Below, in pieces: positions 10,415 to 30,193 of a stretch of 64,000 nucleotides of DNA. Both the position numbers and the translations under genes were made by a program. The notes under the pieces are model-generated. The model saw only the letters and a list, made by a program, of their open reading frames with translations. It searched no databases and had not been told where the DNA came from. This stretch comes from Opitutia bacterium ISCC 52 (GTDB lineage: Bacteria > Verrucomicrobiota > Verrucomicrobiia > Opitutales > UBA2995). Position 1 is the stretch's first letter. The number at the start of each line of letters is the position of its first letter. The stretch lies in assembly GCA_014529675.2 (NCBI GenBank), contig CP076040.1:1612001-1676000 (forward strand), given 5' to 3'.

Positions 10415-10427
10415 CCTAAGTTTGGAA

Positions 10428-10450: not shown

Positions 10451-10488
10451 GAAATTGCGTTTAACCCTAGCCATCTCTGATATACCTG

Positions 10489-11967
10489 ATGCCAAAACAT
10501 CATTCTTTGTACCCAGACATTTGTTTGGATAACAGCTCACATGCTGAACGGAGTATAAAACTTGCCCTTACGGTAGCCTTGTCTTCCCTGTTGCTACTCA
10601 GTGGGTGTGTTACGAAATCTCCACCAAACCAGTCCGATAAATTGGATATTACCGCCCCTGCCAGTTTCGTTTCCGATAACGACAGAGCTCCTTTCTGGAA
10701 CGACGGGTGGATGCAGGATATCCAGGACCCCATGCTTCCTAAGATTATTGCTGAAGCATTGGAGCATAACTATAATTTAGTGGCCGCTGAAGGGCGTCTC
10801 GAAGCCGCACGTGCAACGGCTGTGATTCAGGGCTCTGGTAAATACCCCAGCCTGACACTCAATACCTCGGGAAACCGATCGCAGCGTAATAATGCGGGAG
10901 GGGTAGTTATCACGAGTAATCAGAGTAAGAATTTTGGTTTAAACGGAAGGACCAATTGGGAGTTGGATCTCTGGGGACGTGTGAGAGACCAAGCGTCTGC
11001 TGGTCTGGCTGACTATCAGGCTTCGGTTGAAGATTACCGGGATGCTCGTTTCTCAATAGCCGCCAATGTGGCTCGTGCCTGGTATCGGGCTATCTCTTCG
11101 GAGCTACAACTCCAGATATCCATTGAGAGCTTGGAAACCTTTGAGTCCAATTTAGAGATTATTGAGGAAAACTTTAAGCGAGGTATCGCGCGCGCGCTCG
11201 ATCTTCATTTGATGCGGGCGAATGTCGCCAATTCTAAGAGTAGTTATGAGACTCGTCTGAGAGCTTTCGAAGGTGATCGCCGAACGCTTGAAATTCTTCT
11301 CGGGAGATATCCTGCGAATGAGATAGCGATCGCCAAAGAATTGCCGCAGATAAAGAAGTCGATTCCTGTGGGGCTTCCCGATGATCTCCTGAATCGTCGT
11401 CCCGACATCCGTTCTGCTGAACGCCGGTTGGCTGCAGACTCGAAGGGTGTCGATGTCGCGAAGAAAGCGCTGTTACCAGGAATTAATCTTAATGGAAGCT
11501 ATGGAACGAGCACCCGGGAATTTGATCTTCTAACAGATGAACGATTTAAAGTTTGGAGCTATGGTTACAATATAAGTCTTCCGGTGCTCCAAGGTGGACG
11601 AATCAACGCGACCAAGGATCGAACCTATGCTGTCTATAAGCAATCACTGGCCAACTATCATCAATCGGTCTTGAGAGCTTTTGAAGAAGTTGAAACTTCG
11701 CTTTCAGATGAAGACTCTCTTTTCCGTGATGAAGAAGCGCTTCGTGAGACGGTCGTGGAATACAATGCGGCGGTTGATTTAGCCTGGGAACAATACAATC
11801 GAGGCTTGGTTGATATTATCACCGTCCTGGATTCCCAGCGTCGCCTCTTCAATGCCGAACGCTCTCTAATTGTTATCAGCAACCAAAGAATTCAAAGTCG
11901 AATCGGACTCTACCTGGCCTTGGGTGGAGGATTCGTTGACGAGGAAGAGGAACCCGAAACTTATTAA
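10489..11967 (+). CDS. RND-type outer-membrane efflux lipoprotein (TolC/NodT family)
   Basis: This 492-residue protein carries a lipoprotein signal ending LLLLSG-C40, so the mature protein would be anchored by Cys40. The rest has the two repeated helical halves of the outer-membrane efflux factor family: IIAEALEHNYNLVAAEGRLEA, GRTNWELDLWGRVRDQ, and in the second half GLPDDLLNRRPDIRSAERRLA and SLPVLQGGRINATKDR. Trimers form a channel through the outer membrane and a tunnel in the periplasm. It is the first gene of the efflux set, 6 bp ahead of the adaptor gene, and is the only outer-membrane component for five permeases. Confidence 0.93.
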   Translation: MPKHHSLYPDICLDNSSHAERSIKLALTVALSSLLLLSGCVTKSPPNQSDKLDITAPASFVSDNDRAPFWNDGWMQDIQDPMLPKIIAEALEHNYNLVAAEGRLEAARATAVIQGSGKYPSLTLNTSGNRSQRNNAGGVVITSNQSKNFGLNGRTNWELDLWGRVRDQASAGLADYQASVEDYRDARFSIAANVARAWYRAISSELQLQISIESLETFESNLEIIEENFKRGIARALDLHLMRANVANSKSSYETRLRAFEGDRRTLEILLGRYPANEIAIAKELPQIKKSIPVGLPDDLLNRRPDIRSAERRLAADSKGVDVAKKALLPGINLNGSYGTSTREFDLLTDERFKVWSYGYNISLPVLQGGRINATKDRTYAVYKQSLANYHQSVLRAFEEVETSLSDEDSLFRDEEALRETVVEYNAAVDLAWEQYNRGLVDIITVLDSQRRLFNAERSLIVISNQRIQSRIGLYLALGGGFVDEEEEPETY

Positions 11968-11973
11968 TTTCCC

Positions 11974-13422
11974 ATGAAAATACTCAGAATCTTATTACCC
12001 TTAGTTATCCTTGGTGGAGCTGGCTTTCTCGCCTACTGGATCATCTCTACGAAGCCGGAGCCACGGCAAAGAAACTTTACACCGGGTGCCACGCAAGTGG
12101 AGGTGTTCGTTCTTAAGCCGAGTAGCTACCAGGTAGAACTGGAAACGCAGGGCACGGTGCGAGCACGCACTGAAAGTACCCTGATTCCCGAAGTGCGTGG
12201 TCGTATCCTGGAGATCGGAGCTAACTTCCGTGAAGGTGCTTTCTTTGAAGAAGGGGATGTGCTCATGCGAATTGATCCCCGCGATTATCAAACCGAGCTG
12301 GTGGTTGCGGATGCAAACCTGGCTCAAATGCAACTGGCATTGAGTGAAGAAGAGGCTCGTGCGGAACAAGCTTACGAAGACTGGATACGTCTGGGGCTTG
12401 GTGAGGAACCTGGAGAATTGGTGCTTCGTACTCCACAGCTCAAACGAGCCAAAGCGAATGTATCTTCCTCTGAAGCTCGCCTGGAAACAGCCAAGCGCAA
12501 TCTTGAGAAGACTGAAATTAAAGCCCCTTACGCAGGAAGAATTCTTACCAAGAACGTAGATGTGGGGCAGTATGTTTCTCCTGGAAATCAAATGGCTGAA
12601 ATTTATGCCGTCGATTTTGCTGAGGTGCGCTTGCCGCTTACAGAAACTCAACTTACGTTTTTAGACTTACCAGAAATCTATCGCGGAGAGCAGCCTAACT
12701 TCAGAGATGGACCCAATGTGGTTCTTTCTTCGAACGTTGCCGACAAAACGCATGATTGGAATGGACGCATCACGAGAGCAGAAGGTAGTTTCGATACCCG
12801 TACGCGTCAGTTATTTATCATTGCGCAAGTCCGCAATCCGTATGGTCGGACTGATGACGAAAAGCCACCTCTAAAAGTGGGCTCCTTTGTGAAGGCAAAG
12901 ATTCGTGGTGCCGTTCTTGAAAACGTGTTTGTGGTACCACGCCGTTTGCTTCGGGAAAACTCCTTTCTGTTAACGGTAGATGAGAATGATACGCTCCGTC
13001 GCAAAACAGTGGATATTGTTTGGCAGAATGATTCATCGATTATTGTGAATGGTGGATTGGAGCCAGGAGACAGGATTTGTTTAACCGACGTTCCATTTGC
13101 ACTTGAAGCCTTACCAGTAGAAGCTACCGAATTGGACAAGCTTCCCTTTGAAGTTGAAAAGGTGGATGTAGAAGCTGTCGTGGCTCGCCGAGCGGCTGCC
13201 GCACCTCAAGGAGGAGCTGGCGGATTCTTAGGACAATTGATGTCGGCTATACCCGCAGACAAACCGATCCCCGCGGATTTAAAGGCCAAGCTGGAAGCTG
13301 CTTCTTCTGATCGCTCCAAGATGAGACCTGCCATGCAGGAGCTCCGCGCCTGGGCCGAGAAAGAAGGTATTGAACTGCCCGGTGGTGGTGGAGGCGGAGG
13401 TGGCCGAGGAGGTCGAGGCTAA
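11974..13422 (+). CDS. RND periplasmic adaptor (membrane fusion protein)
   Basis: This 482-residue protein has an N-terminal membrane anchor (residues 4-25), a lipoyl-like half motif, an alpha-hairpin of about residues 110-175 rich in Ala/Glu/Lys, the second lipoyl half (IKAPYAGRILTKNVDVGQYV), a beta barrel and a membrane-proximal domain. It would bridge the inner-membrane pump to the outer-membrane channel. The C-terminal 80 residues are unusual: after FEVEKVDVEAVVARR comes an Ala/Pro-rich helical region and a tail of eight consecutive glycines followed by RGGRG. It starts 6 bp after the efflux lipoprotein gene and precedes the five permeases by 96 bp, so it is the only adaptor available locally. 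Confidence 0.93.
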   Translation: MKILRILLPLVILGGAGFLAYWIISTKPEPRQRNFTPGATQVEVFVLKPSSYQVELETQGTVRARTESTLIPEVRGRILEIGANFREGAFFEEGDVLMRIDPRDYQTELVVADANLAQMQLALSEEEARAEQAYEDWIRLGLGEEPGELVLRTPQLKRAKANVSSSEARLETAKRNLEKTEIKAPYAGRILTKNVDVGQYVSPGNQMAEIYAVDFAEVRLPLTETQLTFLDLPEIYRGEQPNFRDGPNVVLSSNVADKTHDWNGRITRAEGSFDTRTRQLFIIAQVRNPYGRTDDEKPPLKVGSFVKAKIRGAVLENVFVVPRRLLRENSFLLTVDENDTLRRKTVDIVWQNDSSIIVNGGLEPGDRICLTDVPFALEALPVEATELDKLPFEVEKVDVEAVVARRAAAAPQGGAGGFLGQLMSAIPADKPIPADLKAKLEAASSDRSKMRPAMQELRAWAEKEGIELPGGGGGGGGRGGRG

Positions 13423-13518
13423 ATTTCCATTCTCCACATCTCATATTTTCAGTAAGTCTCCTATAGAAACAATTATGTCTCAGTCTTCGGATCAGAGTTA
13501 ACCCTTACTTTAAGAACA

Positions 13519-16500
13519 ATGCATGGAATGATCGCATGGTTTGCGCGGAACGGCGTAGCCGCAAATTTGTTAATGTTTGCAATTATAGCTGGAGGGTTTT
13601 GGTCCATAAAAGACAAAATTATTCTTCAAGAGTATCCTGAATTTCCACCGCGCGAAATTCGAGTTTCTGTTTCTTACAGAGGATCTACTCCTGGTGAAAT
13701 TGAACAAGCCATTCTTACCCGGCTTGAGGAGGCTCTTTACGATATTGAAGGTATTGAAGAAATGGAGGGTCGCGCTAGTGGTAGTTCTGGAACTGTTACT
13801 CTGCTCATCGAAGACGGTTATAATTTAAGTGAAAAACTGGATGAAGTAACCAATCGAGTTTCTACGATTCGGACGTTTCCTCCAGAAGCGGAACGCCCTC
13901 AGATCGAATTGAGGTCACGGTCTGAGCGAGTTATCACGATGGTTCTTTCAGGCGAATTAAGTGAAAAGGATCTTACACGACTTGGAGAACAAATCCGCGA
14001 TGAAGTTTCTAATGTCCCGGGTATTACTCTTGCATCCTTAAAGGCAGTTCGTCCCTACGAAATCGCCATCGAAATTTCAGAGTCTACGCTCAAGCAGTAT
14101 GGTCTTACCTTCGATCAAGTTACTCGTGCGATTCGATCGTCGTCGGTTGATTTATCTGCCGGTAGTGTAAAAACGGAGACAGGCCGAATCTTACTCCGCA
14201 CTAATCAACAGGCTTACGATTACGAAGACTACTCAGGAATTACTATTCTTACGCGACCTGACGGAACGAAAATTAAGGTGAGTGATGTCGCCAATGTTAT
14301 TGATGGCTTTGACGAGACTCCGATTGTTGCTCGATATAATGGTGAGCGAGCCATTGCAATAGATGTATTCCGGACCGGGATGCAGAATATAATTGAGATT
14401 GGGGATGACGTTAAAGAATTCATTGCCATAAAACAACAGCAGTTACCCGAAGGCATTACCTTGGGTTACTGGTCCGATGATTCAGAACGAATTAAGGTAC
14501 GCTTAGCTACACTTCAGGATAGTGCCATTTTTGGTTTTATTCTAGTTGTTATTATACTGTCTTTGTTCCTCCGGCCTACCTTGGCTTTTTGGGTCGCATG
14601 GGGTATTCCTATCGCTTTTGCGGGCACCTTCCTTTTGTTACCTTTCCTTGGACTTTCATTGAACGTAATCACCTTGATGGCATTCATCATGACTTTGGGG
14701 ATTGTGGTGGATGATGCCATTGTTACGGGGGAGAATGTCTTTCAACATATGCAGCGTGGTGAAAAACCACTGGCCGCTTCGATCAAAGGTACTAACGAGG
14801 TTGCTATTCCTGTAATATTTGGAGTTATAACTACCATGGTGGCTTTCTTCCCGCTTGTCATGCAAGGAGGCACCGGTGGAAGTATTTATAAGAACATCCC
14901 CATGGTGGTGATTCCGGTACTGTTTTTCTCTTTGGTCGAGTCTAAATTGATTCTGCCGGCTCACCTAAAGCACTGCACTCACCTTGCTGACAAAACAACC
15001 AAACAAAATATATTTACAAAGTTCCAGCGTTTCTTTGCCGATGGTTTGGAATCGTTCGTTCTGAAATATTACCGACCTGCCTTGAATAAGGCTTTAATCA
15101 ATCGGTATGTTTCATTATCCATCTTTATTGGACTGCTCGTGGTGTTCCTGGCTCTGGTTTTTGGTGATCGTATTGGTTACCGTCGCCGAACGAGCACTCC
15201 TCAGGATACCACGACTATCACTTTACTCATGCCTGCGGGCACCAACTTTGAGGTCACTCAGGAAAAGGTGGATATCATTGAAGCAGCTGCTTTGAAATTA
15301 AAGAAGGACGTCAATGAACGCTTTGATACCATTGTCATCCAAAACGTGTTTGCGACAGCTGGAGGACAACCCTTCGGTGATGGACGTCGTCGCGGTGGTG
15401 GGCCCTCGGCGGGCGTTGCTGAAATGGGTGAGATATTAATTGAGCTGACTCCATCTGAGACTCGCAGCGTTCAATACGGAGGTCGTGAGCTGGTATCCGA
15501 ACTTCGGAATCTTGTTCCTCCAATGCCTGAAGCGGAAACTTTAAGTTTTTCATTCGAGCGGGGAGGAGGCCGAGCGGCAATGACCTTCCAAATTATTCAT
15601 CCTGACGTGGATTTACTTAAGGAAGCTTCCGGTGATTTGCAGAGGAAGTTAGCATCCTTCGAGGGACTTTACGATATTTCTGATTCCTACGAACGGGCGA
15701 ATGATGAATTTGAGTTGGATCTGAAGCCCGAGGCTGAGTACTTAGGCGTCACAGCTAGTAATCTTGCGCAGCAAGTTCGCACCGCATTTTTTGGATCCGA
15801 GGCACAACGCATTCAACGGGGTCGCGATGAAATTCGAGTCATGGTTCGTTATCCCGAGAGTGAGCGACGCTCCCTGGGGTCACTGCAAAGTATGATGATT
15901 CGCACCGCGAATGGGACCGAGGTTCCATTTGGGACCGTGGCCGATATTGTTCCCGGTAGAAGCTTACCATCCATTCAACGGATTGACCGAAAGCGGATTA
16001 TTCAAGTTCAGGCTGATGGTGATACTGCAACATTGGATATTGAAGCCATTGAAGCCGAAATCCTGGACTCATACCTGCCTCAGTTGGCAGCAACCAAATA
16101 TCCTGGACTCCAGTATGAAGTGAGCGGGAGGGCTGCTGAGGAGCGTGAGAATCAACGTCGGATGCGTATTGGTATTTACGTGATCTTAGCTGTGATTTAC
16201 GCCCTGTTGGCGATACCATTTAGAAGCTACTTTCAGCCGATAATCGTTATGTCAGCCATTCCTTTTGGGGTGGTCGGTGCCATTTTGGGACACTACTTTA
16301 TGGCCAAGATTTTTGGTTACAACAACGGTCAGCCGATTATTACCCAACAATCGATCTTTGGTATGATGGCTTTGTCTGGAGTTGTAGTGAACGATACTCT
16401 GGTGATGGTTCACTTCATGAATTCAAGAGTGAAGGAAGGTATGCCGCTTGAAGAAGCGGTACGTCTGGCAGGAGTACGACGCTTTCGTCCTATTTTGCTT

Positions 16501-16746
16501 ACTTCCTTAACGACATTTTTCGGGCTTGCTCCACTCATGTTTGAAACAAGTCCACAGGCTGCAGTTCTTGTTCCTATGGCAATATCTTTGGCTTGGGGTA
16601 TCGTCTTTGCGACTGCCATCACATTGATGCTTATTCCTGTGCTCGTGCTGGTGTATAACGATCTGCAAATGGCCTTCTATAAGCTCTACGATATTGATCC
16701 TCATGCTCACGATGATGATGAAGACGAAGCTTTGAGTCCTGCATGA
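13519..16746 (+). CDS. RND inner-membrane permease, copy 1 of 5
   Basis: This 1075-residue AcrB/HAE1-type proton-driven pump has twelve membrane segments and two large periplasmic loops (about residues 35-330 and 560-860). TM4 carries the proton-relay pair D398-D399 in GIVVDDAIVTGEN. TM10 reads SGVVVNDTLVMVHF with N958-D959; the lysine of classical AcrB TM10 is not present. Periplasmic blocks include AVRPYEIAIEIS and AQQVRTAFFG. Its glycine-rich loop reads FGDGRRRGGG. The start follows a 96-bp gap with no obvious ribosome-binding site. It is the only copy with Thr after N-D in TM10. The substrate is unknown. Confidence 0.95.
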   Translation: MHGMIAWFARNGVAANLLMFAIIAGGFWSIKDKIILQEYPEFPPREIRVSVSYRGSTPGEIEQAILTRLEEALYDIEGIEEMEGRASGSSGTVTLLIEDGYNLSEKLDEVTNRVSTIRTFPPEAERPQIELRSRSERVITMVLSGELSEKDLTRLGEQIRDEVSNVPGITLASLKAVRPYEIAIEISESTLKQYGLTFDQVTRAIRSSSVDLSAGSVKTETGRILLRTNQQAYDYEDYSGITILTRPDGTKIKVSDVANVIDGFDETPIVARYNGERAIAIDVFRTGMQNIIEIGDDVKEFIAIKQQQLPEGITLGYWSDDSERIKVRLATLQDSAIFGFILVVIILSLFLRPTLAFWVAWGIPIAFAGTFLLLPFLGLSLNVITLMAFIMTLGIVVDDAIVTGENVFQHMQRGEKPLAASIKGTNEVAIPVIFGVITTMVAFFPLVMQGGTGGSIYKNIPMVVIPVLFFSLVESKLILPAHLKHCTHLADKTTKQNIFTKFQRFFADGLESFVLKYYRPALNKALINRYVSLSIFIGLLVVFLALVFGDRIGYRRRTSTPQDTTTITLLMPAGTNFEVTQEKVDIIEAAALKLKKDVNERFDTIVIQNVFATAGGQPFGDGRRRGGGPSAGVAEMGEILIELTPSETRSVQYGGRELVSELRNLVPPMPEAETLSFSFERGGGRAAMTFQIIHPDVDLLKEASGDLQRKLASFEGLYDISDSYERANDEFELDLKPEAEYLGVTASNLAQQVRTAFFGSEAQRIQRGRDEIRVMVRYPESERRSLGSLQSMMIRTANGTEVPFGTVADIVPGRSLPSIQRIDRKRIIQVQADGDTATLDIEAIEAEILDSYLPQLAATKYPGLQYEVSGRAAEERENQRRMRIGIYVILAVIYALLAIPFRSYFQPIIVMSAIPFGVVGAILGHYFMAKIFGYNNGQPIITQQSIFGMMALSGVVVNDTLVMVHFMNSRVKEGMPLEEAVRLAGVRRFRPILLTSLTTFFGLAPLMFETSPQAAVLVPMAISLAWGIVFATAITLMLIPVLVLVYNDLQMAFYKLYDIDPHAHDDDEDEALSPA

Positions 16747-16789
16747 TGATTTCATGTAGGCCCTTAAATATTTTGATACAACCAATCCT

Positions 16790-19700
16790 ATGCACGGAAT
16801 AATAGCTTGGTTTGCACGCAATGGTGTTGCGGCAAATTTATTAATGATCGCTATCCTGGCGGGTGGCTTTTGGGCTGGATCCAGCAAAATCATCCTTCAG
16901 GATTTTCCAGATATTCCCTTTCGGAATATAACGGTTTCGGTCTCCTACCGTGGATCAACTCCGGGAGAGATCGAGCAGGCTATTGTTACTCGTCTGGAAG
17001 AGAATCTCTACGACATTGAAGGTATTAAAGAGATGGATGCTACGGCGAATTCGAACACTGGTATGGTTAGGCTGGAGATTGAAGAAGGTTACGATATGAG
17101 TGAGAAGCTCGATGAAGTGACCAATCGAGTATCTACCATTCGTACCTTTCCCCCTGAGGCTGAGCGTCCTCAAATCAGTCTGGTCAGTCGATCCGAACGT
17201 GTGATTACTTTGGTGTTATCCGGTGATTTAAGTGAGAAAGATGCAAAATCCCTCGGTGAGCAAATTCGGGATGAAGTTTCCAATCTTCCAGGACTTACCT
17301 TAGTTTCTCTGAAGGCGGTAAGGCCTTATGAAATAGCGATTGAGATTTCTGAACAGACGCTACGCCAGTATGGACTTACCTTCGATCAGGTCGTGCGTGC
17401 CATTCGCACATCATCTGTCGATTTATCCGCCGGAAGTGTGAAAACGGAAACCGGCCGGATTCTTCTACGCACGAATCAACAAGCGTACGATTACGAAGAT
17501 TTTTCCTCCATCACACTCATCACGAGAGAAGATGGAACCAAGATTAAGGTCGGTGATGTAGCTACGGTAAAGGACGGATTTGATGAAACCCCCATCGTTG
17601 CTCGTTACAATGGTGAACGTGCCATTGCCATAGATGTCTTCAGGACGGGTATGCAGAACATCATCGAAATTGGTGAGACGGTTAAGGAATTTGTGGCTCA
17701 GAAACAGCAGCAATTACCTGAAGGGATTTCGTTAACCTATTGGGACGATAGCTCGGAGCGGATCAAGCTCCAGCTGAACACGTTAAGGGATAGTGCCTTA
17801 TTGGGGTTTCTTCTGGTTGTAATCGTACTATCGATGTTTCTGCGGCCGACGTTGGCGTTTTGGGTGGCTTGGGGAATCCCTATCGCATTCTCAGGCACCT
17901 TCTTGTTACTTCCGTTTATGAATGTTTCCATCAACTTGGTAACATTGATGGCCTTTATTACGACGCTCGGTATCGTGGTGGATGATGCCATTGTGACGGG
18001 CGAAAATGTCTTTCAGCAAATGCAACGGGGTGTAAATCCGTTAACGGCTTCCATTAAAGGAACTCAGGAGGTGGCAGTGCCCGTTATATTTGGGGTCATC
18101 ACAACCATGGTGGCTTTCGCTCCTCTGCTTATGCAGTCAGGGACACGGGGTAGTGTATTTAAAAACATCCCTATCGTAGTAATACCCGTTCTGTTTTTCT
18201 CTCTGATTGAGTCCAAACTTATCTTGCCTGCTCACTTGAAGCATTGCACGCATATGGCAGATAAGAATCCCAAGTTGAATATATTTTCACGTTTTCAGCG
18301 GTTCTTCGCCGATGGGTTAGAGACGTTTATTGTAAAAGTATACCGACCTGTTTTGCATAAGGCATTGGATCATCGCTATGTATCTGCTGCTTTGTTTGTA
18401 GGTGTCCTTGTTGTATTTATCGCACTCGTTTTGGGAGATCGTATCGGTTATCGTGGTCGTCCTACTATTCCACAAGATACCACGACCATCACATTACAGA
18501 TGCCTGCCGGTACTTCTTTTTCGGTTACCCAAGAGAAGGTGGATATGATCGAGGCCGTTGCTTTAAAGCTAAAAAAAGATGTCAACGAACGGTTTGATGA
18601 ACAAGTCGTTCGGAACGTATTTGCTACAGCTGGGGGGCAACCCTTTGGCAGCTCCCGTGGACCTCGTCCTGGTGGTCCTGCTGCGGGGGTTGATGAGTTA
18701 GGCGAAATACTCATTGAACTCACCCCTTCAGAAACACGGAAGGCGGCATACAGTAGTCGTGATCTCGTTCTGGATATGCGCACCATGACTCCTCCCATTC
18801 CGGAGGCGGAACAACTCAACTTCTCTTTTGCTCGTGGAGGTTCGGAATCTGCGATGACCTTCGAGCTTATCCATCCGGATATTGACATATTAAAAGCTGC
18901 TTCTGCGGATTTACAGCGGAAGTTGGTAACCTTTGATGGATTATATGACATTGAAGATACTTACGAGCGTGCGAGTGATGAATATGAGTTGGATCTCAAA
19001 CCCGAAGCTGAATATTTGGGTGTAACTGCCGTCAACCTTGCTCAGCAGGTGCGCACCGCATTTTTTGGGTCCGAAGCTCAGAGGATTCAGCGGGGGCGTG
19101 ACGAAGTTCGAGTCATGGTTCGTTACCCGGAAAAAGAGCGTAAATCCATTGGCGCTCTGCAAAACATGATGATTCGAACCCCGAATGGAACGGAGGTGCC
19201 TTTTGAGACGGTGGCAACCATCGTGCCTGGAAAAAGCTTACCTAGTATCCAGAGGGTGGACCGCCAGCGTATCATTCATGTTATGGCAGATGGAGATGCC
19301 GAGGAACTGGACATCGAATCCATGGAAACTGAGATTCTGGAACAATACCTTCCTGAATTGATTGCTACTAAATATCCGGGCATGCAATTCGGCGTTCGAG
19401 GGTTTGCTCAATCCGCTAGAGAGAATACCGAGGAAATGATTCTGGGGATCTATATCATTCTGGGGGTGATTTATGCATTACTTGCCATTCCGTTCAGAAG
19501 TTATTTTCAACCTATCATTGTTATGTCGGCCATTCCATTTGGAGTAGTGGGTGCTATTTTTGGACACTATTTCATGGCTGTGCTCTTTGGTTGGAACGAT
19601 GGAGATCCGATTATCACCCAACCATCCATCTTTGGAATGATGGCATTGTCGGGGGTTGTAGTGAACGATAGCCTTGTGATGGTTCACTTTATGAATCGAA

Positions 19701-20023: not shown

Positions 20024-20047
20024 TACATTATGAAAGTGGCAATTTCT

Positions 20048-20078
20048 CATACTCTACGGCTTTTTTGGAGTATGTTTT
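20048..20078 (+). terminator. Possible terminator or attenuator between permease copies 2 and 3
   Basis: CATACTC and GAGTATG can pair as a 7-bp perfect stem, extendable to about nine pairs (one G-U), with a loop containing T residues and TTTT after the stem. The stem is AT-rich and the T tract is short, so termination would be partial. It lies in the first of two unusually long (about 130 bp) gaps of the array. Confidence 0.35.
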
Positions 20079-20157
20079 GTCATTGTGTAATAAAGTGGAT
20101 GCGCCTACCTTTTTCAGGTTTTTCAATGATTGTGCTAACCCCTAATCCCCAAGAAAT

Positions 20158-23100
20158 ATGCACGGAATAATAGCCTGGTTCGCTCGTAATGGAGTGGCCG
20201 CAAATCTGCTGATGATAGCCATTCTGGCCGGAGGAATCTGGGCTGGTTCCAGCAGAGTAATTTTACAAGAGTACCCGGATAGGACATATCCCTACATATC
20301 CGTTTCTGTTTCATACCGTGGAGCTACACCTGGAGAAATTGAACAAGCTATTGTTACGCGTCTTGAGGAAGCCCTCTACGATATTGAAGGTGTAAAAGAA
20401 ATGACCGGTAGGGCGAGGTCCGGCTCCGGTTCAATTCAACTGGAAATTGAAGAGGGTTATAACTTGAGTGAAAAGCTGGATGAAGTGACCAATCGTGTTT
20501 CTACCATCCGCACGTTCCCGCCCGAAGCAGAACGCCCGCAGATCAGTCTCTATACCCGGACGGAGCGTGTTATAACCATGGTGTTATCCGGTGAGCTGAG
20601 TGAAAAAGAACTCACCAAACTAGGAGAACAGATTCGAGATGAAGTATCCAATGTGCCTGGGATCACGCTGGCGTCACTTAAAGCGGTTCGGCCTTACGAG
20701 ATTGCTATCGAAATTTCTGAAGGAACTCTCAGACAGTATGGGCTTTCGTTTGATGATGTCACTCGAGCTATACGTACGTCTTCGGTTGATTTATCAGCTG
20801 GTAGTGTGAAGACGGATACGGGACGCATCTTATTGCGTACCAATCAACAGGCCTATAATTTCGAGGACTATTCCTCTATTACCATACTTACTCGCCCTGA
20901 TGGTACTAAAATTCAATTAGGTGATATTGCTACGGTTATTGATGGCTTTGACGAAACGCCAATCATTTCCAAATACAACGGGGAACGTGCGATTGCTATC
21001 GATGTGTTTCGAACGGGCATGCAAAACATCATTGAGATCGGAGATGATGTTAAGGAGTTCCTGGCTGTGAAGCAGACGCAATTGCCAGAGGGAATCAAGT
21101 TGAGTTACTGGGGTGATGATTCGGAGAAAATTAAGATCCGTTTGGCGACGCTTCAGGACAGCGCAATCATGGGGTTCCTATTGGTCGTTGTTATTCTATC
21201 TCTCTTTTTGCGACCGACACTTGCGTTCTGGGTAGCCTGGGGTATCCCCATCGCATTTGCGGGGACATTTTTGATACTCCCATTCCTGGGGTTGTCACTC
21301 AACGTCATTACCCTTATGGCCTTTATCATGACCTTGGGAATTGTGGTCGACGACGCCATTGTGACGGGCGAAAACGTCTTTCAGCATATGCAGCGGGGTG
21401 AAAAGCCTGAGAGTGCAGCAATCAAGGGAACACAAGAAGTGGCAATCCCGGTTTTCTTTGGTGTGATTACTACGATGGTGGCATTCTTTCCGATCATGAT
21501 GCAATCAGGCACCCTGGGTTCTATTTATTCGAACATCCCCAAAGTGGTCATCCCGGTTTTGTTTTTTTCATTAATCGAGTCCAAGTTGATTCTCCCGGCT
21601 CATTTGAAGCATTTTAAGCATCTAGCCGACAAACAACCGAAGCAAAATTTCTTTACGAAATTTCAGCGTTTTTTCGCGGATGGATTGGAACGTTCGATCT
21701 TAAAGTATTATCGACCGGTGTTGAATTGGGCGCTGATCAATCGCTACATTTCAACTTCCATTTTTGTCGGTTTTCTCTTCATCTTTGTGGCGCTTGTTTT
21801 AGGTGAGCGAATTGGTTATAAACGGCGGGCAGTTACGCCGGTGGATACGACGACCATTTCCTTGAGAATGCCAGCGGGAACAGTTTTTGAGGTGACTCAG
21901 GAAAAAGTAAATTTGATCGAAGCGGTAGCTCTCCGCTTGAAAGATGATGTGAATGAGCGCTTTGATACCACGGTGATTCAAAACGTCTTTGCCACCGCGG
22001 GCGGTTCGCCTTTTGGAGATGGGTTTGGCAGGAGGGGCAGTACTGGCCAGGCAGAAGTCGGAGAAGTTATTATTGAGCTGACCCCATCCGAGACGCGGGA
22101 TGCTGATTATGGAAGCCGTGAACTTGTACTTGAAATGCGTAATCTCGTTCCTCCCATTCCGGAAGCTGAACAGCTGAGTTTTTCATTTTCCCGATTCAGT
22201 TCTGGAGGAGCCATATCCTTAGAGCTTAATCATCCGGATGTTGAGATACTTAAAGAAGCCTCCGCCGACCTACAAAGAAAACTTGGAACCTTTGAAGGTT
22301 TATTCGATATCACGGATTCTTTTGAAAGAGCCAATGACGAGTACGAGTTGGATTTGAAACCAGAAGCTGAGTATTTGGGGGTAACGGCTACACAGCTTGC
22401 CCAACAAGTGCGCACAGCGTTTTTTGGATCGGAGGCACAGCGGATTCAACGTGGTCGCGACGAAATTCGAGTGATGGTTCGTTATCCGGAAAGCGAACGT
22501 CGTTCTATTGGCTCCTTACAGAACATGATGATTCGAACTGCCAATGGCACGGAAGTTCCCTTTGAGACCGTTGCCGAAATTATTCCTGGCAAGAGTATGC
22601 CTTCTATCGAACGGATAGATCGTAAGCGTGTCATCCAAGTCAGTGCTGATGGCGATACCCAGGAGTTGGATATCGAATCGATGGAGACAGAAATACTCGA
22701 AGAGTATTTACCGGAACTGTCGGCGACCAAGTATCCTGGATTGGAATTTGGAGTGCGGGGGTATTCAGCCATGGCTCGCGACAATCAGCGTGAAATGATT
22801 GTTGGAATCTATATCATTCTGGGTGTAATTTATGCTCTGTTAGCCATTCCTTTTCGCAGTTATTTTCAGCCCATCATCGTGATGTCTGCGATTCCATTTG
22901 GAGTGGTAGGAGCTATTTTGGGTCACTACTTTATGGCCAAGATCTTCGGTTGGAATAATGGTATTCCTATTATTACCCAGCGATCTATCTTCGGCATGAT
23001 GGCTCTTTCCGGAGTTGTTGTTAATGATAGTTTGGTAATGGTTCACTTTATGAATTCCAAAGTAAAGAAGGGGATGCCCCTCAATGAAGCGGTTCGGCTT

Positions 23101-23379
23101 GCCGGTGTTAAACGTTTTCGACCCATTCTGCTGACTTCATTAACTACGTTCTTTGGCTTGGCGCCGCTGATGTTTGAGACGAGCCCACAGGCCGCCGACC
23201 TTGTTCCTATGGTGATCTCCCTGGCATGGGGGATCGTGTTTGCCACGAGCATTACCTTGGTGCTGATCCCTGTGTTGGTTCTTGTTTACAACGACATTCA
23301 GCAAGCCTTTTATAAACTCTATAATATTAATCCTCACGTTGATGAAGATGAGGAGGAAGAGATGATGAACCCTGCATAA
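20158..23379 (+). CDS. RND inner-membrane permease, copy 3 of 5
   Basis: This 1073-residue AcrB-like pump has D398-D399 in TM4 and the N-D-S motif in TM10. By eye it is close to copy 1: shared blocks include LFLRPTLAFWVAWGIPIAFAG and LGLSLNVITLMAFIMTLG. The beta domain reads YPDRTYPYISVS and the glycine-rich loop is shortened to FGDGFGRRGSTGQ. The periplasmic strand SFSRFSSGGAISLELNHP also differs from the RGG(G)xAMTF version of copies 1, 2 and 4. It starts after a 134-bp gap that contains the terminator-like hairpin, so it could have its own promoter. The C-terminal tail is strongly acidic. Confidence 0.95.
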   Translation: MHGIIAWFARNGVAANLLMIAILAGGIWAGSSRVILQEYPDRTYPYISVSVSYRGATPGEIEQAIVTRLEEALYDIEGVKEMTGRARSGSGSIQLEIEEGYNLSEKLDEVTNRVSTIRTFPPEAERPQISLYTRTERVITMVLSGELSEKELTKLGEQIRDEVSNVPGITLASLKAVRPYEIAIEISEGTLRQYGLSFDDVTRAIRTSSVDLSAGSVKTDTGRILLRTNQQAYNFEDYSSITILTRPDGTKIQLGDIATVIDGFDETPIISKYNGERAIAIDVFRTGMQNIIEIGDDVKEFLAVKQTQLPEGIKLSYWGDDSEKIKIRLATLQDSAIMGFLLVVVILSLFLRPTLAFWVAWGIPIAFAGTFLILPFLGLSLNVITLMAFIMTLGIVVDDAIVTGENVFQHMQRGEKPESAAIKGTQEVAIPVFFGVITTMVAFFPIMMQSGTLGSIYSNIPKVVIPVLFFSLIESKLILPAHLKHFKHLADKQPKQNFFTKFQRFFADGLERSILKYYRPVLNWALINRYISTSIFVGFLFIFVALVLGERIGYKRRAVTPVDTTTISLRMPAGTVFEVTQEKVNLIEAVALRLKDDVNERFDTTVIQNVFATAGGSPFGDGFGRRGSTGQAEVGEVIIELTPSETRDADYGSRELVLEMRNLVPPIPEAEQLSFSFSRFSSGGAISLELNHPDVEILKEASADLQRKLGTFEGLFDITDSFERANDEYELDLKPEAEYLGVTATQLAQQVRTAFFGSEAQRIQRGRDEIRVMVRYPESERRSIGSLQNMMIRTANGTEVPFETVAEIIPGKSMPSIERIDRKRVIQVSADGDTQELDIESMETEILEEYLPELSATKYPGLEFGVRGYSAMARDNQREMIVGIYIILGVIYALLAIPFRSYFQPIIVMSAIPFGVVGAILGHYFMAKIFGWNNGIPIITQRSIFGMMALSGVVVNDSLVMVHFMNSKVKKGMPLNEAVRLAGVKRFRPILLTSLTTFFGLAPLMFETSPQAADLVPMVISLAWGIVFATSITLVLIPVLVLVYNDIQQAFYKLYNINPHVDEDEEEEMMNPA

Positions 23380-23429
23380 TCTATCGAATTGAAAAAAGAA
23401 TAATACATTAACTTCTTAAGTTTAATTTT

Positions 23430-26400
23430 ATGCATGGAATTATAGCCTGGTTCACTCGAAACGGAGTGGCGGCCAATTTATTAATGATTTCTATCCTGGC
23501 GGGTGGTGCTTGGTCGTTAATGAGTCGAGTCATTCTTCAAGATTTCCCAGATATACCTGATAGAGGAATTTCTGTTACGGTAGAGTACCGTGGTTCCACA
23601 CCCGGTGAAGTTGAGCAGTCGATTATTACAAGATTGGAGGAAGCCCTCTACGATATCGAAGGTGTTAAGGAGATGGACGCCACCGCTTCTTCCAATTCAG
23701 GCACCCTTCGTTTGGAAATCGAGGAAGGTTATAGCATGAGCGAAAAACTGGATGAGGTGACTAATCGAATTTCTACCATTCGTACCTTTCCACCGGAAGC
23801 AGAGCGGCCTCAAGTCAGTTTAGCAAGTCGATCAGAAAAAGTAATCACTATGGTCATTTCAGGCGATCTAAGTGAAAAGGAACTCAAGATCCTGGCTGAG
23901 CAAATCAGAGATGAAGTTTCGAACATTGCCGGGATCACGATGGCTGCTGTTAAAGCTGTTAGACCCTATGAGATTGCCATTGAAATATCGGAAGAGACAT
24001 TGCGTCAGTATGGATTATCATTCGATCAAGTTACGCGTGCTATACGTACTTCATCGGTTGATCTTTCTGCGGGATCGGTGAAAACAGAAACCGGGCGAAT
24101 TCTTCTGCGGACCAATCAACAGGCATACACCTATGAAGATTACTCGGCTATCACTATTCTGACCCGTGGAGATGGCACTAAAATTACCTTGAGTGATATA
24201 GCGACCGTTATCGATGGCTTTGATGAGACGCCTATCGTGGCTCGTTACAATGGTGACCGAGCAGTGGCTGTAGATGTTTTCCGAACAGGAATGCAGAACA
24301 TCTTGGAAATTGGCGATGCGGTGAAAGGATATATTGAGGTCAAGCAGGAGCAATTACCCGAAGGAATTACCTTAACCTATTGGGGGGATAGTGCCGAACG
24401 CATCAAAGTCCGATTATCGATGTTGGTGGACAGTGCTATTATGGGATTCTTCCTGGTGGTCGTCGTCCTGTCATTATTCTTACGACCCACCTTGGCATTT
24501 TGGGTAGCACTCGGGATTCCCATTTCATTTGCAGGTTCTTTTCTGTTACTACCTTACTTGGGTATTACGATCAATTTGCCTGTCATCTTGGCTTACATCA
24601 CGACCCTGGGGATTGTGGTGGATGATGCGATTGTTACGGGGGAGAATGTGTACCAGCACATGCAGCGTGGAGATAAGCCCTTGAAGGCTTCAATCGTTGG
24701 AACTCAGGAAGTAGCCGTCCCCGTATTTTTTGGAGTAATCACAACCATGGTTGCCTTTTATCCGTTGATGTTAATGTCCGGAAGGAATGGCGCATTTTTC
24801 GGTCAAATAACGTTGGTGGTTATCCCCGTTCTGTTTTTCTCGTTAGTTGAATCAAAGCTCATTCTGCCGGCTCACCTGAAGCACTGCAGGCACTTGGGAG
24901 AAAAAGATAAAAGCAAGAATCCTTTCATGCGATTCCAGCGCTTATTTTCCGGAGGACTTGAGGTGTTTGTCGTTAAAATCTACAAACCCGTGCTCAATAA
25001 AGCTTTGGTGCATCGGTATACCTCTTTTTCCATTTTTGTAGGACTTCTCGCTATCTTTTTAGCCATGATTGTCGGGGAGAGAATTGGATATCGTGAACGA
25101 CCTTCATCCGTTTCCGATACTACAACCATTACGCTTCGAATGCCTTCCGGGACTACCTTTGAAAGGACCCTGGAAAAAATTACTATGATCGAAGAGCAGG
25201 CATTGCTACTTAAACAGCAGGTTAATGATCGATATGATGCGAGTGTGGTTAAAAATATTTTTGCGACAGCCGGGGGCCAACCGTTTGGTAGGTCTCGTCC
25301 TGGTACTGCGGGTAATGCTGCCGCAGGTGTTGATGAAATCGGCGAAGTAATTGTTGAGTTAGCTGAATCTGGTGCCACGGCCATCTCCTATGGTACCCGA
25401 GAGTTTGTAACTGAATTGCGCGAAATGGTTCCTCCTATTCCGGAGGCCGAGGAACTCACCTTTTCCTTCGAACGAGGTGGAGGAGGCGGTGCCATGACCT
25501 TTGAGCTTATTCATCCGGATATTGATGTGTTGAAAGCTGCTTCTGCTGAGTTACAACTGAAATTGGAATCCTTTGAAGGCTTGTATGATATTAGTGACTC
25601 CTATGAACGAGCTAATGATGAGTTTGAATTGGATCTAAAGCCGGAAGCGGAATACCTGGGAGTTACCGCTTCGAATTTGGCACAACAAGTTAGAACCGCA
25701 TTCTTTGGTGCAGAAGCTCAACGTATTCAAAGAGGACGTGATGAAATTCGTGTGATGGTCCGCTACCCTGAGGCAGATAGGAAATCTCTGGGATCCCTTT
25801 CCAGGATGATGATACGAACAGCCAATGGTACAGAGGTCCCCTTTGATACGGTTGCCCAAGTCATTCCCGGCAAGAGTATGCCCACGATTCGCCGGGTTGA
25901 TAGGAAAAGAATCATCCAAGTGAATGCCGATGGTGATACAGAGAAATTAGATATTACCGGAATGGAAACCGAAGTCTTGGAACAGTTCCTGCCAGAACTC
26001 GCTGCGACTAAATACACGGGATTGGAATTCGATGTGCGTGGACGTGCAGCTGAAGCACGGGATAACAATCGCGAAATGATTATGGGGATTTATCTCGTTT
26101 TGGGAGTTATCTATGCGCTTTTGGCCATTCCTTTTAGAAGTTATTTTCAACCATTGATTGTCATGTCAGCAATTCCCTTTGGCATGGTCGGTGCCGTATT
26201 GGGGCATCTTATTATGGCGAAGATATTTGGTTGGAATGACGGTGATCCCAGATTGTACCAATCCTCTATTTTCGGAATGATGGCTTTATCCGGAGTTGTC
26301 GTAAACGACAGTCTCGTGATGGTGCATTTTATGAATTCTCAAGTGAAAAAGGGTATGACTTTGGGCGAGGCAGTTCGCACAGCCGGAATTAGACGATTCC

Positions 26401-26663
26401 GTCCTATCTTGCTGACGTCCTTGACCACCTTCTTCGGATTGGCTCCTCTTATGTTCGAGGGGCATTCTACCGCTTCATTTCTCATTCCCATGGCTATCTC
26501 ATTAGGGTGGGGGATCATTTTTGCGACCACCGTTACCTTGATTCTTATACCGGTTCTGGTATTAATAGCTGACGATTGCAGGCAGGCATTCTTCAAGCTC
26601 TATGATATCGAGCCAGAGGTGCATGATTCAGAGGAAAAAGAAAAGCTAATGACGCCAGCTTAA
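23430..26663 (+). CDS. RND inner-membrane permease, copy 4 of 5 (divergent)
   Basis: This 1077-residue paralogue starts 50 bp after copy 3. TM4 D398-D399 and TM10 N-D-S are conserved. It differs in membrane and loop segments that are constant elsewhere: VALGIPISFAGSFLLLPYLGITINLPVILAYITT in the TM3-TM4 region (read across 24509-24605), MSGRNGAFFGQIT where others have a GS or GN followed by NIP, ELAESGAT in place of ELTPSE, and MFEGHSTASF in place of MFETSPQA. These point to altered substrate or partner specificity. Its glycine-rich loop is FGRSRPGTAGNAAAG. It is followed by a 132-bp gap before copy 5. Confidence 0.95.
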   Translation: MHGIIAWFTRNGVAANLLMISILAGGAWSLMSRVILQDFPDIPDRGISVTVEYRGSTPGEVEQSIITRLEEALYDIEGVKEMDATASSNSGTLRLEIEEGYSMSEKLDEVTNRISTIRTFPPEAERPQVSLASRSEKVITMVISGDLSEKELKILAEQIRDEVSNIAGITMAAVKAVRPYEIAIEISEETLRQYGLSFDQVTRAIRTSSVDLSAGSVKTETGRILLRTNQQAYTYEDYSAITILTRGDGTKITLSDIATVIDGFDETPIVARYNGDRAVAVDVFRTGMQNILEIGDAVKGYIEVKQEQLPEGITLTYWGDSAERIKVRLSMLVDSAIMGFFLVVVVLSLFLRPTLAFWVALGIPISFAGSFLLLPYLGITINLPVILAYITTLGIVVDDAIVTGENVYQHMQRGDKPLKASIVGTQEVAVPVFFGVITTMVAFYPLMLMSGRNGAFFGQITLVVIPVLFFSLVESKLILPAHLKHCRHLGEKDKSKNPFMRFQRLFSGGLEVFVVKIYKPVLNKALVHRYTSFSIFVGLLAIFLAMIVGERIGYRERPSSVSDTTTITLRMPSGTTFERTLEKITMIEEQALLLKQQVNDRYDASVVKNIFATAGGQPFGRSRPGTAGNAAAGVDEIGEVIVELAESGATAISYGTREFVTELREMVPPIPEAEELTFSFERGGGGGAMTFELIHPDIDVLKAASAELQLKLESFEGLYDISDSYERANDEFELDLKPEAEYLGVTASNLAQQVRTAFFGAEAQRIQRGRDEIRVMVRYPEADRKSLGSLSRMMIRTANGTEVPFDTVAQVIPGKSMPTIRRVDRKRIIQVNADGDTEKLDITGMETEVLEQFLPELAATKYTGLEFDVRGRAAEARDNNREMIMGIYLVLGVIYALLAIPFRSYFQPLIVMSAIPFGMVGAVLGHLIMAKIFGWNDGDPRLYQSSIFGMMALSGVVVNDSLVMVHFMNSQVKKGMTLGEAVRTAGIRRFRPILLTSLTTFFGLAPLMFEGHSTASFLIPMAISLGWGIIFATTVTLILIPVLVLIADDCRQAFFKLYDIEPEVHDSEEKEKLMTPA

Positions 26664-26795
26664 GTGTTCGATTGTACTTCCGGTATTCTCGAAGATGAAA
26701 GCATTTTAATAGGAATAGCATTGTCGAGTAGATGCTCTTATTCAGAATGCCCAGAATCCTAGCCTAAGAACCTCTTTTATAAATATCCTTAAAAT

Positions 26796-29700
26796 ATGCA
26801 CGGAATCATAGCCTGGTTTGCGCGTAATGGAGTAGCTGCTAATTTACTGATGATTGCCATTCTGGCGGGTGGAGTATGGTCAGGTACCAATCAGGTCATA
26901 TTGCAGCAGTACCCAGAAATGCCGCAAAAGATGATCACAACTACAGTGATTTATCCCGGTTCCACACCTGGAGAAGTTGAAGAAGCTATTTTAACGCGTC
27001 TCGAAGAAAGTCTTTACGACATCGAAGGAATTAAAGAGATGACGGCAACTGCCAGATCAAGCTCTGGAACCGTTATGTTGGAAATTGAGGATGGTTACAA
27101 TATGAGTGAGAAGCTCGATGAAGTGACCAACCGGATTTCTACGATTCGTACCTTTCCTCCTGAAGCAGAGCGCCCTCAGATCAGTCAATTTTCCTTCGCA
27201 GAACGAGTGATTACGATTGTCGTATCCGGCGACCTGAGTGAACGTGAATTAAAGACTCTGGGTGAGCAGCTCCGAGATGAGGTCTCTAATATCCCGGGAA
27301 TTACTTTGGCTTCATTGAAAGCAGTGCGGCCTTATGAAATCGCGATTGAAGTGTCAGAGCCCACCCTTCGTCAGTATGGTCTAAGCTTCGATCAAATTAC
27401 TCGAGCGATTCGTACATCCTCTGTCGATTTGTCAGCTGGCAGTGTAAAAACGGAGACAGGCCGTATTCTGCTCCGGACCAATCAACAAGCCTACACCTAT
27501 GAAGATTTCGCGGCTATTACTATTCTCACTCGTTCTGATGGTACCAAATTAAAGTTGGGCGATTTGGCCGATGTGAAGGATGGGTTTGATGAGAACCCGA
27601 TCGTTTCCAATTACAATGGAAAGCGGGCCATCGCGATTGATATCTTCCGAACGGGAATGCAAAACGCCATCGAGATTGGTGATAGTATTAAAGAGTTTAT
27701 CGAAGTTAAGGAGGATCAACTGCCGGAAGGTATTCATTTGAGCTACTGGGATGATGATACCGTACGTATCAAAGTTCGTATTCAAACCCTCATGGATAGT
27801 GCCACCATTGGTTTTATCTTAGTGGTGCTCATACTCTCCTTATTTCTAAGACCAACTCTGGCGTTCTGGGTAGCCTGGGGTATCCCGATTGCCTTTTCGG
27901 GTACGTTTTTGATGATGCCCTTTCTTGGGCTGACGATCAATATCGTTACCCTCATGGCCTTCATCACCACGCTGGGGATTGTGGTCGATGACGCGATTGT
28001 TACGGGGGAAAATGTGTTTCAACACATGCAGCGCGGAGAGAAGCCTTTAGCGGCTTCCATTAAAGGAACGAACGAAGTGGCAATTCCAGTAATGTTTGGG
28101 GTGATTACCACGATGGTCTCATTCTTTCCTCTGATGATGATGTCTGGGTTTATGGGGAATTTCTTCAGGAATATCCCTCTCATCGTAATACCAGTACTTT
28201 TCTTCTCTTTGATCGAATCCAAGTTGATCCTTCCGGCACACCTGAAGCATTGTTCGCACTTGGGGGACAAGGTTGAAAAGAAGTCCAATATCTTTATCCG
28301 CTTTCAGCGTAGTTTTGCGGATGGCTTAGAACGGTTTATTCTAAAAATATACCGACCATTTTTAAATGTGGCCTTAAACAATCGCTATGTATCCGTATCG
28401 ATCTTTATTGGCTTTCTTTTCGTCTTTCTCGCGTTGGTTATTGGCGATAGAGTAGGGTTTAGGCGTTTTCTTTCCGTCCCGGATGATACCACCAAAATCT
28501 ACTTGGAAATGCCAGCGGGAACTACCTTTGAACAAACGCACTCAAAGGTGAAAATCATAGAGAAAATCGCCTTGGAATTAAAGGAAGAGGTCAATGAGCG
28601 ATTCAATGAAGTCGTCATCCAAAACGTGTTTGCAACCGCAGGTGGTCAACCGTTTTCATCACGTGGAGGTTTTCGAGGAGGGATTGCTGGAGTACCTGAA
28701 CAAGGTGAAGTTGTCCTCGAGCTGACTCCATCAGAATCTCGAAAAGCTAATTATGGAAGTATGGAGCTTGCCACGGATATGCGTAACCGTGTTCCACCTA
28801 TTCCAGAAGCGGAGACCTTGAGTTTTAACTTTGCTCGTTTTGATTCTGGGCAGGCGATTGGCTTTCAACTCATTCATCCAAATATGGAAATGCTGAAGGC
28901 TGCTTCAGCAGAGCTGCAGCGGCATTATGGAACCTACGATGGCTTATACGATATCAAAGACTCCTATGAACGGGCCAGTGATGAGTATGAGTTGGAGTTG
29001 AAACCTGAGGCGGAGTATCTAGGGATTAATACTGTTAACCTTGCCCAACAAGTTAGAACGGCATTCTTTGGCGCTGAAGCTCAACGCATTCAAAGAGGAA
29101 GAGACGAAATAAAAGTAATGGTGCGTTATCCAGAAGAGGCTCGTCGTTCCTTAGGTTCCCTTCAGGCCATGATGATTCGAACAGCCAATGGAACTGAGGT
29201 TCCATTTGATACCGTGGCGAGAATTATCCCAGGTAAGAGCCTTCCTACCATTACCCGAATTGATAGGAAACGCATTATCTCTGTGATGGCCGATGCGGAT
29301 ACGTTGACCACGGATACAGAAGCAATCGAAATAGAAATAGAGCAGGAATTTTTACCGAAATTAGCCGCAACAAAATACCCAGGTTTGGAATTTCAAGTGA
29401 TGGGCTTTTCAGCAGATAGTCGGGAAGAACAAGCCGAGATGGTACAGGGCATTTTCTTTATTCTCGCTGTGATTTACGCGCTTCTGGCCATTCCGTTTCG
29501 AAGTTATATGCAGCCGATCATTGTAATGTCGGCGATACCCTTTGGTGTCGTGGGTGCCATAATTGGTCATTGGATCATGGCCACGGTATTTGGTTGGAAC
29601 GGAGGGACTCCCATTTTGACCCTCCAATCAATTTTCGGGATGATGGCTCTGTCGGGTGTAGTCGTAAACGATAGCCTGGTTATGGTTCACTTTATGAACC

Positions 29701-30020
29701 GTAAAGTGAAAGAAGGCATGCCAATTAATGAGGCCGTTCGCATGGCGGGCGTTCGACGTTTCCGTCCGATCTTGCTTACATCAATGACCACCTTCTTTGG
29801 TCTGGGACCTCTGATGTTTGAAGACAGTCCGCAGGCGGCGTTTCTTGTGCCCATGGCCATCTCCCTGGCCTGGGGTATCGCATTTGCTACTGTGATCACC
29901 CTGGTCTTGGTCCCCGTGCTCGTTTTAATCTACAACGACATTAAGCGAGTATTCTGTGCCATATATGGTATCACTCCTCATTCTCACGAAGTGAAAGAGG
30001 AAACCTTGTCACCGGCCTAG
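26796..30020 (+). CDS. RND inner-membrane permease, copy 5 of 5 (divergent)
   Basis: The last, 1074-residue member of the array keeps D398-D399 in TM4 and N-D-S in TM10. It has several private features: the beta strand QKMITTTVIYPGSTPGEVEEA, DENPIVSNYNGKRAIAID in place of DETPIVARYNGERAIAID, MMSGFMGNFFRNIP in the TM5-TM6 region, and FRRFLSVPDDTTKIYLEMP before the second periplasmic loop. The second-half membrane start reads MVQGIFFILAVIYALLAIPF. The glycine-rich loop is FSSRGGFRGGIAG. The gap before it (26664-26795) contains an imperfect hairpin near 26712-26746 with no clear T tract. The repeat structure at 30033-30410 follows its stop. Confidence 0.95.
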   Translation: MHGIIAWFARNGVAANLLMIAILAGGVWSGTNQVILQQYPEMPQKMITTTVIYPGSTPGEVEEAILTRLEESLYDIEGIKEMTATARSSSGTVMLEIEDGYNMSEKLDEVTNRISTIRTFPPEAERPQISQFSFAERVITIVVSGDLSERELKTLGEQLRDEVSNIPGITLASLKAVRPYEIAIEVSEPTLRQYGLSFDQITRAIRTSSVDLSAGSVKTETGRILLRTNQQAYTYEDFAAITILTRSDGTKLKLGDLADVKDGFDENPIVSNYNGKRAIAIDIFRTGMQNAIEIGDSIKEFIEVKEDQLPEGIHLSYWDDDTVRIKVRIQTLMDSATIGFILVVLILSLFLRPTLAFWVAWGIPIAFSGTFLMMPFLGLTINIVTLMAFITTLGIVVDDAIVTGENVFQHMQRGEKPLAASIKGTNEVAIPVMFGVITTMVSFFPLMMMSGFMGNFFRNIPLIVIPVLFFSLIESKLILPAHLKHCSHLGDKVEKKSNIFIRFQRSFADGLERFILKIYRPFLNVALNNRYVSVSIFIGFLFVFLALVIGDRVGFRRFLSVPDDTTKIYLEMPAGTTFEQTHSKVKIIEKIALELKEEVNERFNEVVIQNVFATAGGQPFSSRGGFRGGIAGVPEQGEVVLELTPSESRKANYGSMELATDMRNRVPPIPEAETLSFNFARFDSGQAIGFQLIHPNMEMLKAASAELQRHYGTYDGLYDIKDSYERASDEYELELKPEAEYLGINTVNLAQQVRTAFFGAEAQRIQRGRDEIKVMVRYPEEARRSLGSLQAMMIRTANGTEVPFDTVARIIPGKSLPTITRIDRKRIISVMADADTLTTDTEAIEIEIEQEFLPKLAATKYPGLEFQVMGFSADSREEQAEMVQGIFFILAVIYALLAIPFRSYMQPIIVMSAIPFGVVGAIIGHWIMATVFGWNGGTPILTLQSIFGMMALSGVVVNDSLVMVHFMNRKVKEGMPINEAVRMAGVRRFRPILLTSMTTFFGLGPLMFEDSPQAAFLVPMAISLAWGIAFATVITLVLVPVLVLIYNDIKRVFCAIYGITPHSHEVKEETLSPA

Positions 30021-30179: not shown

Positions 30180-30193
30180 GCGACGTACGAATG

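Follow-up and report, generated by a model that had tools for sequence, protein, structure and literature searches.

How might five full-length RND permeases, set in a row behind one outer-membrane factor (OMF) and one periplasmic adaptor (MFP), share a single exit duct, and to what end? The question is raised by a locus of Opitutia bacterium ISCC 52 that was analysed within a window of 64,000 nucleotides, which covers bases 1612001-1676000 of a 4.8 Mb genome assembled as one contig. The original prediction, made from the letters of the window, had described one OMF, one MFP and five tandem permeases, and the open reading frames were indeed found in this arrangement, all on the + strand, with gaps of 43, 134, 50 and 132 bp between successive permeases. 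The TM4 Asp pair, predicted to occupy identical positions, was located at residues 398/399 in 5/5 permeases.

The first gene of the array (10489..11967, +) encodes an outer-membrane efflux lipoprotein of the NodT/OprM type (PF02321 (OEP), 1.5e-41; TIGR01845 (outer_NodT), 307 bits against a cut-off of 210) with a lipobox-like LLLSGC sequence. The adaptor gene follows (11974..13422, +; PF13437, 1e-14; TIGR01730 (RND_mfp), 143.5 bits against a cut-off of 94.9; Pfam matches HlyD_3/HlyD_D23). Its product ends in a C-terminal extension of about 100 residues (window 13120-13422) with a Gly-rich stretch and a IPADKPIPADLKAKL-like motif; the 6 further array MFPs in the comparison have such an extension too, as does L020, a relative with a single permease. 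The permeases, AcrB-type proteins of 1073-1077 aa, span 13519-30020 on the + strand: R1 at 13519..16746 (PF00873, 544.9 bits), R2 at 16790..20023 (540.8 bits), R3 at 20158..23379 (541.2 bits), R4 at 23430..26663 (490 bits) and R5 at 26796..30020 (528.4 bits). A weak sigma-70-like candidate promoter upstream of the OMF (10372..10401, +) was the only + strand site of the promoter scan inside an intergenic gap, and the scan returned 22 sites on both strands against 29.3 expected by chance. No terminator-like sites were found on the + strand in the gaps between R1 and R5, and no Shine-Dalgarno sequence was obvious in the 25 bases before any of the seven array gene starts (window 10464-26795). The seven genes are likely to be co-transcribed; gaps between array genes reach 365 bp in relatives, so internal promoters are also possible. 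An ORF of 140 aa directly after R5 (window 30069-30491) had no Pfam match and is probably not a gene, because only short pieces of it match in G005, a genome of the same genus. Further along the window, an IS200-like (Y1) transposase domain was found in a gene at 58519-59508.

All five permeases belong to the RND family, with PF00873 (ACR_tran) matches of 490-545 bits that cover the profile to position 1018 of 1021, and the MFP (TIGR01730) and OMF (TIGR01845) that adjoin them, both above cut-off, mark a tripartite pump. The whole genome yielded 18 ACR_tran matches, some of which are pieces of one gene. Models for MdtB/MuxB and for MdtC scored 244-292 bits on R1-R5, far under their cut-offs of 1584 and 1774, and membership in either family was rejected. 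The relay positions D407, D408, R971 and T978 (AcrB numbering) are kept in all five permeases. In TM10, Lys940 of AcrB is replaced by Asn and Asn941 by Asp in the five permeases and in nine relatives compared, so ion coupling may differ from that of AcrB. R1, the sole copy modelled, has an AcrB-like fold in its AlphaFold model, which matches AcrB, AcrD and AdeJ and reached TM-scores over the query of 0.73-0.79 among the 50 best PDB matches. Mean pLDDT of this model was 80.5; the arm (residues 210-231) was the longest stretch below 50, and five shorter stretches also fell below that value.

We searched for relatives of the array in 27 genomes, eight of which belong to the family of the window genome (Opitutales). 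The window genome (G000) and G001-G005 represent its genus; G006 and G007 represent a second genus. Tandem permease copies were present on one contig in 7/8 family genomes, and a row with three or more copies is common to most of the close relatives. G006 carries a complete OMF-MFP-A-B-C series on one contig, A, B and C being the permease types described below. The array of G005 reads A-A-B-C across two contigs, with OMF-MFP on a third (L023) and room for more copies in the break. One contig of G001 reads OMF-MFP-A and breaks off just inside one more gene, and another carries the 3' part of an A-like gene and then B-A-C; this amounts to four complete copies, or five if the two part-genes are one gene, and the R3-type gene stands after B, not before it. 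In both G004 and G007, two contigs carry A-B and B-C. The A-A-B array of G003 lies on two contigs that overlap by 96 identical bases, its second gene is interrupted by 301 bases of N, and type C is missing, because the last 9.7 kb of the contig contain no permease. In G002, one type A gene adjoins OMF-MFP, and another, different A-like part-gene was found on a separate contig. Type C was the last gene in all five arrays with a sequenced type-C 3' end (G000, G001, G005, G006 and G007). The upstream flank is conserved as well. A fatty-acid desaturase gene (window 7611..8717, +; PF00487, 1.5e-17) lies upstream of OMF-MFP in 7/7 family genomes with that flank sequenced (G000, G001, G002, G003, G005, G006 and G007), and a divergent GDSL esterase/lipase gene (window 9556..10233, -; PF13472, 2e-11) is found in 6/7 of them, being absent in G003. 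From these two neighbours one might guess at lipid-like compounds as substrates.

The types were defined by trees. The careful tree was built from 38 hand-chosen rows of the 47 in a wider tree; permeases below 600 aa or 56% identity, and hence the type B part-gene of G007, were left out, as were the duplicate contigs L024-L028, L073 and L080, and one earlier tree kept seven distant outgroups. In the 38-row tree, R4 forms a clade (type B, 100/100) with its counterparts in G001, G003, G004, G005 and G006 and four singletons, and R5 forms another (type C, 100/99) with the genes closing the arrays of G001, G005, G006 and G007 and with one G004 gene. Each clade spans both genera. Shared clades across related genomes, which the original prediction had proposed to look for, therefore exist for types B and C. 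R1 and R3 were placed in type A, R3 pairing with a G001 gene at 100/100, and R2 is of type A by position, with its place in the tree not settled; monophyly of type A (the first-position genes, R1-R3) was neither supported nor rejected (p-AU 0.425). A lineage-specific burst, in which the five window copies would form one clade, was rejected (p-AU 0.000165). The family ancestor probably had an OMF-MFP-A-B-C array, as still complete in G006, and the simplest history would be that type A was then multiplied, to three copies in the window genome, and that genes were gained, lost and reordered.

A stand-alone paralogue of the array permeases within the genus (G000:C1:108016-111204, 68% identical to R1) is close to the array genes, with its forks left open in three trees. 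On the - strand of its locus (L001, G000:C1:98001-115000; genes at 1359-16980), genes for an ECF sigma factor and a FecR-domain protein precede it, those for a sulfatase, an adaptor and a second RND permease follow, and PSD-domain and HXXSHH genes are outermost. G004 and G005 share the permease-sulfatase-adaptor-permease order.

Pairwise protein identity among R1-R5 is 68.5-81.0%. Their fourfold-site identity was 0.293 (3779 site pairs), compared to 0.275 expected at saturation from codon usage, and none of the pairs had more than 31 nt of uninterrupted DNA identity. With silent sites this near saturation and no longer shared run, the five permeases are old, separately maintained copies, and no recent gene conversion among them was seen. 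The dN/dS ratio was approximately 0.03 for R3, R4 and R5 compared to their orthologues (dS was saturated for R1, and R2 was without a clear orthologue), and these three genes are under purifying selection.

We consider it rather probable that the locus encodes a shared-duct, multi-permease tripartite efflux system whose permeases act mainly as homotrimers with diversified porter domains. One OMF trimer and one MFP ring would serve a set of permeases derived from old tandem duplication. Each permease would most likely form mainly its own homotrimer, docking on the same adaptor and channel, and would bring a different porter domain, so that a wider range of compounds could be exported with no duplication of the duct.

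The evidence for this reading lies in where the copies differ. The borders of the regions, and the roles of the arm, pore helix and docking domains, are those which we take to hold for AcrB, mapped by alignment. The arm was set at AcrB 209-241 for the region identities of the five copies, the invariant-column test and the window-pair and tandem-pair comparisons, at 205-245 for the pooled comparison of types with orthologues, and at 210-240 for the residue and silent-site comparisons. Among R1-R5, identity was 97% in the arm, which extends into the adjacent subunit, and 84% in the pore helix; DC stood at 85%, the PN parts at 67-77% and PC1/PC2 at 62-66%. Between types of the same genome (24 pairs), the arm, pore helix, DN and DC were 89, 84, 81 and 83% identical; the corresponding values for orthologues were 89, 84, 85 and 84% for type B and 91, 83, 82 and 84% for type C. 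The porter PC was 62% identical between types versus 71 and 69% in orthologues, and the TM regions 76 versus 84%. In these pooled data, types differ from one another in the docking and trimer-contact parts by about as much as orthologues do, and in the porter and TM parts by more. Such shared surfaces, together with the divergence of the porter, support one exit duct with diversified permeases, and the shared duct of the original prediction thus receives indirect backing from the docking domains. For the second genus, identity between types (4 pairs) was 72.9% in the arm and 71.8% in DN, versus 83.5 and 75.7% in orthologues of the two genera. Full sharing of the contact surfaces is therefore confined to the window's genus. 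Eight positions separated the types cleanly, seven in TM regions and one between TM6 and PC1; none was in the porter, and fixed pocket residues therefore give no sign of type-specific substrates.

By analogy with better-known loci, the homotrimers of this reading are plausible, since single permeases of two-permease loci can apparently work alone. In the available text of PMC4229105, strain KJ needs only one of the two tandem permeases of SmeIJK (SmeJ or SmeK), and MdtAC remains functional when MdtB is missing, though its substrate range is narrower. MuxB and MuxC of P. aeruginosa are both described there as essential, so two-permease pumps can also be obligate. One point against a shared duct is that other adaptors in the window genome, such as that of L001, could be usable too.

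The first rival, which we regard as unlikely, is a combinatorial pump in which mixed trimers on the shared duct would give many pump compositions. Common interfaces would permit such mixing, and a precedent exists in the known heterotrimer MdtBC, described as MdtB2C1 and derived from one ancient duplication in the available part of PMC7015380; heterotrimers of this kind are called rare in that of PMC8277102. The arm is 93-100% identical in 10/10 window pairs, above whole-protein identity in every one, and the strongest enrichment for array-only invariant columns was that of the pore helix (12/38, OR 3.16, p 0.0025 before correction for 15 regions). However, homotrimers conserve their arms too, and the enrichment of the arm itself for such columns was not significant (5/27, p 0.39). 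Interface similarity showed no within-genome excess: the arm was 89.3% identical within the same genome and 87.6% between different genomes, and the values for the window's genus alone were 92.6 and 91.7%. Nor was the arm raised in the G006 array (70-81% versus 70-76% overall). Tandem pairs of MdtBC and similar systems had the opposite pattern to that of the window, with arm identity below overall identity in 6/8 pairs, equal in 1/8 and slightly above in 1/8 (two of the eight, L088 and L090, are plasmid pairs). None of the eight type-separating positions was a type-specific interface residue as in an obligate heteromer. The mixed trimers put forward in the original prediction are thus permitted by an arm and pore helix common to all five copies but so far not supported, given the missing within-genome excess and an arm pattern unlike that of MdtBC-like pairs.

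In the window's genus, the silent sites of permease genes have a history of their own, decoupled from that of most flanks. A more far-reaching and quite doubtful possibility is that the locus keeps its adaptor, channel and flanks while permease genes are exchanged into it between lineages, as a cassette, and that their conserved interfaces would let any of the residents co-assemble as mixed trimers on one duct. Between the window genome and G005, fourfold-site identity was 0.65-0.71 for the OMF, MFP, methyltransferase, AhpC, ApbE and DUF3570 genes and the two that follow; the desaturase and GDSL genes reached 0.59-0.61 and the stand-alone paralogue 0.68. The values for R4, R5 and R1 were 0.46, 0.45 and 0.31, although the proteins are 93-94% identical (L014/L016). 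Compared to the more distant G001, R4 stood at 0.444, with the OMF at 0.305, the MFP at 0.299, GDSL at 0.286, the desaturase at 0.379 and the stand-alone permease at 0.322. R4 is thus less alike to the near genome, and more alike to the far one, than its own flanks are, which suggests, on a plain reading of the sequences, that permease genes of the window's genus have been exchanged between lineages. For R1 and R5, hidden older paralogues are an alternative. At the locus of the stand-alone paralogue, the other genes ranged from 0.45 to 0.78 between the window genome and G005, the low ones being a PSD-domain gene (0.45), a short ORF (0.46, 24 sites) and the sulfatase (0.51), so low silent-site values are not unique to the array. 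In the second genus, permeases (0.72-0.74) and flanks (0.73-0.79) of G006 and G007 were in agreement.

A pure dosage effect, with interchangeable copies retained to supply more protein, is very improbable. High protein identity and conserved catalytic residues would fit it; however, the copies are old, types B and C have been held apart across two genera, and R1-R5 differ by 34-38% in PC1 and PC2, whereas dosage arrays are usually near-identical. An artefact of assembly or recent duplication, a concern of the original prediction in favour of which nothing was found, can be dismissed with near certainty, and mostly silent copies seem very improbable, given saturated silent sites between copies, tandem copies on contigs of 6 other genomes and purifying selection on R3, R4 and R5.

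Adjacent RND permeases have been described before as pairs. In the available text of PMC10872679, 203 tandem repeats among 6205 RND proteins are reported exclusively from Clade B (MdtBC, MuxBC, SmeJK), as pairs from one ancestral duplication. Beside HAE-1, the same text proposes another large group of pumps for organic compounds, HAE-4 (Clade H), and states that VexEF, one of its members, needs Na+, which is why the group was considered here as a comparison. The window array resembles MdtABC, MuxABC and SmeIJK in having adjacent permeases, one adaptor and an old tandem duplication that has long been kept. In contrast, those systems have two permeases of HAE-1 Clade B (E. coli MdtB and MdtC are 50% identical) with Lys-Asn in TM10 and, in 6/8 MdtBC-like pairs, an arm less conserved than the whole protein, whereas the window has five permeases, 68-81% identical, with Asn-Asp in TM10 and a more conserved arm. 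A conserved array of three to five permeases in another phylum, with permeases outside the MdtBC family, points to an independent origin. AcrB, AcrD and MdtF share AcrA or TolC, and several RND permeases thereby use common duct parts for a wider substrate range; their genes, however, are at separate loci, whereas the window permeases form a conserved array. The author of the original prediction knew of no described locus with five permeases, and none with three or more in tandem was announced in the titles or abstract openings of the open-licence literature searched; in the corresponding parts of PMC3826837, PMC10998469 and PMC3637150, the words searched for are used in other senses.

Relatives of the adaptor were found at 49 loci in named genomes, the closest from Opitutales and other Verrucomicrobiota and mostly in metagenome assemblies. 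Six loci of other Opitutales (L030, L032, L033, L037, L040 and L041) have the same OMF-MFP-permease order as the window, with permeases 59-61% and MFPs 50-58% identical, but with one permease only instead of five. Another Opitutales family has single B-type permeases (L031, L035, L072, L074 and L075), which in L031 and L035 come with an adaptor of their own. In an order sample of 53 genomes, 31 had a match at E up to 1e-150, and 0/27 outside the family had a pair of matches no more than 1 kb apart; of 59 genomes sampled from the phylum, 16 had a match, with such a pair in 0/15 outside the family. These two samples overlap and were judged by eye from the best 13-14 candidates per genome at most, with some matches near contig ends. 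Among the loci analysed with at least 1.5 kb downstream, a further permease within 1 kb was found for 0/45 full-length permeases from outside the family, a count that leaves aside the family loci and two E. coli K-12 loci (with the MdtBC pair) and takes two contigs twice (L031/L073 and L033/L080). Outside the family, only single copies of the array-type permease were seen in the samples. An order survey of 273 genomes covered the best two candidates per genome only and thus cannot show arrays.

Related OMF-MFP pairs form a natural series with one, three, and four or five permeases, which lets one ask whether RND permeases diversify by substrate, by subunit mixing or by both. In a PF00873 survey of 39 genomes of the phylum, which is uninformative for this clade since even the window's array was absent among the matches listed (E to approximately 1e-197), those matches included, by eye, three adjacent pairs of other RND types and no triple. 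The three pairs, all from Verrucomicrobiota, are at G283:C14, G305:C1 and G279:C6 (L092, L093 and L094). TM10 is MdtBC-like in L092 and L093, and less so in L094.
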